Shown here one piece after another: positions 9,943 to 37,327 of a stretch of DNA of 64,000 nucleotides (position 1 is its first letter; every line of letters starts with the position of its first letter). The notes under the pieces were generated by a model, which worked only from the letters and a program-made list of their open reading frames with translations, did no database searches and was not told the DNA's origin. The stretch is from Bimastos eiseni (taxonomy: Eukaryota; Annelida; Clitellata; Crassiclitellata; Lumbricidae): contig OY365822.1 in the NCBI GenBank assembly GCA_959347315.1, positions 11,852,755-11,916,754 of the forward strand, read 5' to 3'. The translations under genes were made by a program, and so were the position numbers.

Positions 9943-10006
9943 ATGCCTTCTACCGGATCGATAGCATTGATCGCTCTAACACTGACAGCAGTTCGATTTC
10001 GGTTGG
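9943..10006 (+). CDS. Ig gene exon 1 (signal peptide)
   Basis: ATG is followed by a short polar stretch and the hydrophobic run SIALIALTLTAV, then the exon ends in a single G before a good donor (GTAAGC). This is phase 1 and supplies the G for the split Gly codon completed at 24172. A phase-1 signal-peptide exon is the usual arrangement for Ig-superfamily genes. The intron to exon 2 is 14.2 kb. Two arginines follow the hydrophobic core, so the cleavage site is not obvious. Alternative first exons nearer to 24 kb were looked for and none fitted. Confidence 0.55.

Positions 10007-37327: not shown

Follow-up and report, generated by a model that had tools for sequence, protein, structure and literature searches.

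A seven-exon gene for a three-immunoglobulin protein in Bimastos eiseni belongs to a set of about 40 dispersed paralogues

The window, by which we mean the whole 64,000-nucleotide stretch of Bimastos eiseni DNA that was analysed, contains a seven-exon gene for a protein with three immunoglobulin (Ig) domains, here called D1 to D3, and about 40 such paralogues, this one included, are dispersed through the genome. The figure of about 40 is a loose one, as the genome searches score the best candidates only. We consider it probable that the gene is functional and belongs to an old annelid family with dispersed members, and that its membrane-attached product serves in cell recognition, probably neuronal, by way of D1. 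The family is called annelid on account of one named relative, from Paralvinella palmiformis, and of a tree of D2 sequences in which own and other-source sequences are interleaved.

Gene model and support for its exons

All seven predicted exons lie where the initial annotation had placed them, and every internal border in the window sequence is GT-AG. Joined, they make 1308 nt, equal to 435 amino acids and a stop, with running phases of 1, 1, 1, 1, 0 and 1, and the seven-segment model was thus borne out in its positions, borders, phases and open frame. The exon borders track the domains, all on the forward strand. Exon 1 (9943–10006) carries the start codon and a hydrophobic, signal-type N-terminus (residues 1–21), in which hydropathy marks the run IALIALTLTAV, and ends at a GT donor in phase 1. 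D1, a V-set domain, is encoded for the most part by exon 2 (24172–24429) and at its end, from DSGNYTC onward, by exon 3 (24792–24887). The entire D2, which is C2-set_2-like and without the C-strand Trp, lies in exon 4 (28084–28449). D3 is divided between exon 5 (30801–30976), with Cys268 and Cys284 in what would by analogy be strands A and B, and exon 6 (34516–34645), in which strand F reads FRPYTIVAEN and is without the usual Cys. Exon 7 (37110–37327) encodes a stalk and the C-terminal hydrophobic stretch and includes the stop codon TGA. The introns measure, in order, 14,165, 362, 3196, 2351, 3539 and 2464 bp, and the first of them (10007–24171) contains tandem arrays.

The longest array in the introns of the gene is a 1.76-kb purine-rich tandem array of AGAGAGAGAAGC-type units in intron 1 (15612–17375), which is open in long frames and therefore accounts for spurious ORFs as long as 691 aa. 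A TACA array lies in the same intron at 11754–12137. Three ORFs in the window, at 2456–2839 (+), 19312–19614 (−) and 26105–26443 (−), have by eye the peptide AHSAHTERY in common and are probably copies of one interspersed repeat. Within the window, Rfam returned no families at gathering score and ARAGORN, in its bacterial setting, no tRNAs. No families came from a six-frame Pfam scan of 37.4–64 kb in which stops were replaced by X, a result that is uninformative, since two of the three frames of the known Ig exons, scanned in like manner, also returned nothing.

On the spliced product, the profile search proposed in the initial annotation placed Ig_3 (58.3 bits, cut-off 30) and V-set (39.5 bits, cut-off 26) beyond their Pfam cut-offs, and likewise ig, I-set and Ig_2; the C2-set_2 match on D2 was under the Pfam cut-off. 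The Ig content that had been read from the sequence was confirmed in this way, and we assign the product to the Immunoglobulin superfamily by the curated Ig profile cut-offs that it passed and by the three Ig folds predicted for its homologue P0001. D1 is classed as V-set, D2 as C2-type and D3 as I-set-type.

We searched 5.8 billion proteins for relatives, with the first search and the full-length profile search scoring the best ~8000 candidates that shared most words. Nine relatives were found with the spliced product, of which seven were near full length (40–55% identity over 77–86% of the query); homologue P0005 is without the signal part. P0006, the hypothetical protein LSH36_124g07015 of Paralvinella palmiformis (46% identity, 80% of the query covered), is the sole named relative, in agreement with the earlier reading of one spliced three-Ig protein from a nameless invertebrate family. 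It lies on an 847-kb contig. The other six near-full-length homologues lie on contigs of 1.8–3 kb, each with the complete spliced frame, and they are therefore probably transcripts.

We also aligned the nine homologues, which had been retrieved with the spliced product as query, to the window (tblastn, E ≤ 0.01). Matches were confined to exons 2–6 and fell in order, and the reversed window used as control gave no matches. Exons 2, 3 and 5 were matched by all seven near-full-length homologues, exon 4 by all nine, and exon 6 by six of the seven (P0003 missing). Exons 1 and 7 had no tblastn match from the nine homologues. The similarity at exon 1 is a short one (VRFRLG in the window, MRFRKG in P0001), homology in exon 7 reaches only to about residue 395 (in P0002), and the hydrophobic end aligns with nothing, so that the model is less well supported at exon 1 and in the last 40 residues than elsewhere. 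A further set of relatives apparently reads the D2 exon unspliced: 27 of the 29 sequences P0008–P0036 end the domain with [IV][DHQSY]C[KERTA], as would be expected if the intron started T|GT at the same place in each. The D2–D3 profile search scored 4697 candidates, and its own query rows P0003 and P0006 were not among the matches listed. Since two own members were missed, the protein search misses distant relatives and lends no support to a restriction of the family to annelids.

Paralogues in the genome and the age of their expansion

The genome of the species itself (660,451,143 bases, 118 contigs) was searched with the separate exons, and matches were kept at E ≤ 0.001. There were 41 matches for the D2 exon, 40 for the D1 exon, 35 for the first half of D3 and 14 for its second half. 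Matches were paired when they lay on the same strand, with D1 no more than 60 kb before D2 and D3 no more than 30 kb after it, and this gave 33 loci with D1, D2 and D3 in order on one strand, the window gene included. Incomplete loci comprised four with D1 and D2, two with D2 and D3, and two with D2 alone (C17_13481k and C12_4065k), which might be other Ig genes. All 35 D3 matches adjoin a D2 match, and the D1 matches left unpaired numbered three of 40: two are solitary, and the third completes a match on contig C16 that had been split. The initial annotation, sound as regards a spliced three-Ig protein of a nameless family, had missed this membership of a set of about 40 paralogues, which is invisible from the window.

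The copies are almost uniformly open and share the exon plan. Matches were free of stops in 40 of 41 cases for D2 (the other has one TAG), and in all 40 for D1, all 35 for D3 and all 14 for exon 6. The intron within D1 is common to the paralogues, with 33 of 39 exon-2 matches ending at profile positions 81–84, and matches to the D1 end were found apart from exon 2 in 24 instances, three of which view a place a second time. D2 matches are dispersed over 12 contigs, and the gaps between neighbours exceed 1 Mb in 24 of 29 cases and are below 200 kb in three. On contig C1 (10.98–11.03 Mb; L057, L058, L065 and L066), C1_10986k and C1_11034k lie 48 kb apart and are nearly identical (up to 97.6% in D1 and 99.0% in D2); they form the sole near-identical pair in the tree and, judged by their sequences, are a young duplicate. 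A description of the family was not found in the open literature, the scope of our search, to which most subscription journals and bioRxiv do not belong, nor in the accessible portions of PMC10863630, PMC11999971, PMC12403961 and PMC2996935.

The age of the expansion was assessed with a tree of D2 sequences, built from 68 of 76 rows (37 own, 31 from other sources) after omission of rows of 85 aa or less (3 own, 5 others); one of the 41 own D2 exons, C3_28273k, is absent from it. The tree program warned of few columns, long branches and unsettled bootstrap, and for these reasons single deep forks were not used. In seven groups, other-source sequences were each joined to one own paralogue: P0010 and P0011 with the window gene (support 100/99), P0001 and P0008 with C10_15636k (100/99), P0005 and P0017 with C14_10172k (100/100), P0007 with C6_39620k (100/96), P0035 with C8_8119k (100/100), P0022 with C16_9202k (100/99), and P0006 from Paralvinella with C4_24099k (98/92). 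The starred branches force at least eight changes between own and other sequences. As other-source sequences pair with single paralogues, the expansion is old relative to the sources compared, some of which may be closely related to Bimastos eiseni, for example that of P0010, which is 94% identical to the window gene over D2. P0006, a member of the same family with the same D3 cysteine pattern, pairs with a different paralogue, which makes its orthology to the window gene improbable.

Domain hallmarks, predicted fold and anchoring

D1 is the most constrained domain of the family. Mean column identity across eight sequences was 70% in D1, 55% in D3 and 50% in D2, and mean pairwise identity among 31 of the 37 own paralogues was 44.1% in D1 (exon-2 part) versus 32.2% in D2. 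C46, F56, P59, W62, K64, Q66, P82, R88 and L104 were invariant wherever present in 44 D1 rows. A pattern located the C strand of D2 in 66 of the 76 rows tried, and the Trp of that strand was absent from all 66. In the first half of D3, at least two Cys occur in all 34 other copies of exon 5, and the strand-F Cys is absent, by eye, from all 14 copies of exon 6, the window included, four of these stretches having a Cys elsewhere; deviating members could be missed in such counts, because the copies were found with a query of the same Cys pattern. The pattern is also the same in all seven near-full-length homologues. These positions suggest that a Cys268–Cys284 bond may replace the usual B–F bond in D3.

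We predicted the fold of homologue P0001 with AlphaFold (7 rows), using the best of five models, for which mean pLDDT ranged from 74.4 to 51.0. The model has three Ig domains (mean pLDDT 74.4, pTM 0.60), with pLDDT in ten-residue blocks of 61–92 in D1, 52–94 in D2 and 70–94 in D3, and below 50 at the ends. The best solved chains in VIA-align were DIP-eta (18.2), DIP-theta (17.7), SYG-2 (17.6) and Necl-4 (17.1), followed by nectin-1 (17.0), DIP-alpha (16.9), and OPCML and NEGR1 (both 16.6), at rmsd 6–15 over 268–317 residues and with scores less than 1 apart counted as tied. Titin I67–I69 (16.4), SIRP-alpha (16.4) and Dscam (16.2) came closely behind these receptors, and the fold match is therefore not specific. 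Foldseek placed a DIP first and titin fourth for the same model, with TM-scores by query of 0.3–0.4.

Sequence profiles gave different neighbours for different parts of the protein. The best match of the whole-family profile was DIP-alpha (E = 6e-9), spanning only the end of D2 through D3, and the D3 profile was likewise nearest to DIP-alpha (E = 7e-6). The D2 profile was nearest to SYG-2 and SYG-1 (E = 8e-4 to 0.02, the former value for SYG-2). An eight-row D1 profile matched a large number of Ig proteins, with VEGFR-1, titin and CEACAM first, through short stretches, and then V domains. A larger D1 profile of 27 rows (23 own, 4 others) had weak matches among solved structures, all 11 of them T-cell-receptor or antibody V domains, and DIP and IgLON proteins were absent from these 11 matches (E ≤ 0.05), an absence from a list that does not exclude homology.

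At the C-terminus of the window product, a short hydrophobic stretch with a 13-residue mean of 2.28 is followed by six residues, and this makes a GPI anchor plausible. Beyond the corresponding stretch there is one residue in P0006, 21 in P0001 and 23 in P0002, and the tail stretch of P0004 is weak (1.12). P0002 departs from the window product at its end (residues 479–514), where EFRRR and a further 18 residues come after the hydrophobic stretch, and by hydropathy it looks transmembrane. Such mixed tails among the homologues (P0002, P0004) argue against a uniform anchor, and GPI and transmembrane forms may both occur in the family. In flies, most Dpr/DIP proteins are GPI-anchored although only some are so predicted (PMC10863630).

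Proposed function and alternative readings

From its architecture, the product would be a cell-recognition molecule, as the initial annotation proposed, and by analogy the family most likely works in the manner of DIP/IgLON proteins without belonging to them. A signal sequence would deliver the protein to the cell surface, each family member would be displayed on particular cells, probably neurons, and the conserved D1 would bind, on a neighbouring cell, either a partner or another copy of the same protein. D2 and D3 would keep D1 at a distance from the membrane-bound C-terminus, which in the window product is probably fixed by a GPI anchor. Membrane anchoring, D1-mediated binding and expression in neurons are what we infer. 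It is possible, and we suggest it tentatively, that the roughly 40 three-Ig receptors constitute a wiring code of the annelid nervous system, one that arose in parallel to fly Dpr/DIP and is based on mutual recognition by a conserved D1 face, in a family with a rearranged D3 disulphide. The fly set has 21 Dpr and 11 DIP members (PMC11999971).

With Drosophila DIP and vertebrate IgLON proteins the family shares three Ig domains, a similar predicted fold, a hydrophobic C-terminus and a large paralogous set. DIP chains are its top structural matches, and DIP-alpha is the best match of both the whole-family and the D3 profile, as would fit an annelid branch of the DIP/Dpr/IgLON ('wirin') family; even so, we regard such a branch as unlikely. 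A DIP-alpha D3 query found 18 places in the genome, all of them outside the family loci, from which the nearest is 286 kb away. In each of the four DIP-like loci inspected, a single open frame covers D3 and strand F has its canonical Cys (YRC or YKC), a Cys that DIP-alpha and NEGR1 also have, whereas in the window family an intron splits D3 and this Cys is missing; nor did the D1 family profile recognise a DIP or IgLON protein at E ≤ 0.05. Because the DIP-like loci are separate, the worm has DIP-like genes besides the three-Ig family, and the two sets of genes are not one and the same. Among the DIP/IgLON-like D3 stretches, the four at L131–L134 are mutually very similar (GRETILEC.ITA.P) and represent a second Ig family of the worm.

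A diversified immune-recognition family, with a V-type D1 that binds microbes or symbionts, would account for some 40 members, and the weak matches of D1 to T-cell-receptor and antibody V domains fit an immune role equally well. D1 is, however, the most conserved domain and not the most variable, and the dispersal of the genes, with one near-identical pair, together with the pairing of other-source sequences with single paralogues, gives little sign of fast turnover. We consider an immune repertoire improbable, and gene number, age and D1 conservation are better fitted by a recognition code. Less probable again is a junctional adhesion family of the nectin/Necl/SYG type, which is suggested by the V-C2-I arrangement, by the D2 profile with SYG-2 and SYG-1 as its best matches, and by the structural proximity of nectin-1 and Necl-4 to DIP. 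Nectins and SYG proteins are transmembrane. Unlike nectins, Necl/CADM and the Caenorhabditis elegans proteins SYG-1 and SYG-2, the window product has no cytoplasmic tail in this gene model, no C-strand Trp in D2 and a D3 cysteine pattern of its own, and the sequence matches to nectin/SYG are weak. A gene that spans 27 kb of repeat-laden DNA might also be a pseudogene or a fortuitous series of exons, which we judge very improbable given that homologues map onto the exons in order with an empty reversed control, that the frame is open, and that D2 is so closely matched in P0010.

We favour a cell-recognition family that would work like DIP/IgLON and is set apart by the sequence of its D1, by its exon plan and by the cysteines of D3. 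The number of molecules that give neurons an address is known mostly from flies, nematodes and vertebrates. About 40 conserved annelid receptors, at least as many as the fly Dpr/DIP set, would test whether such codes recur, and with the paralogues now located in the genome, their expression and binding are directly testable.
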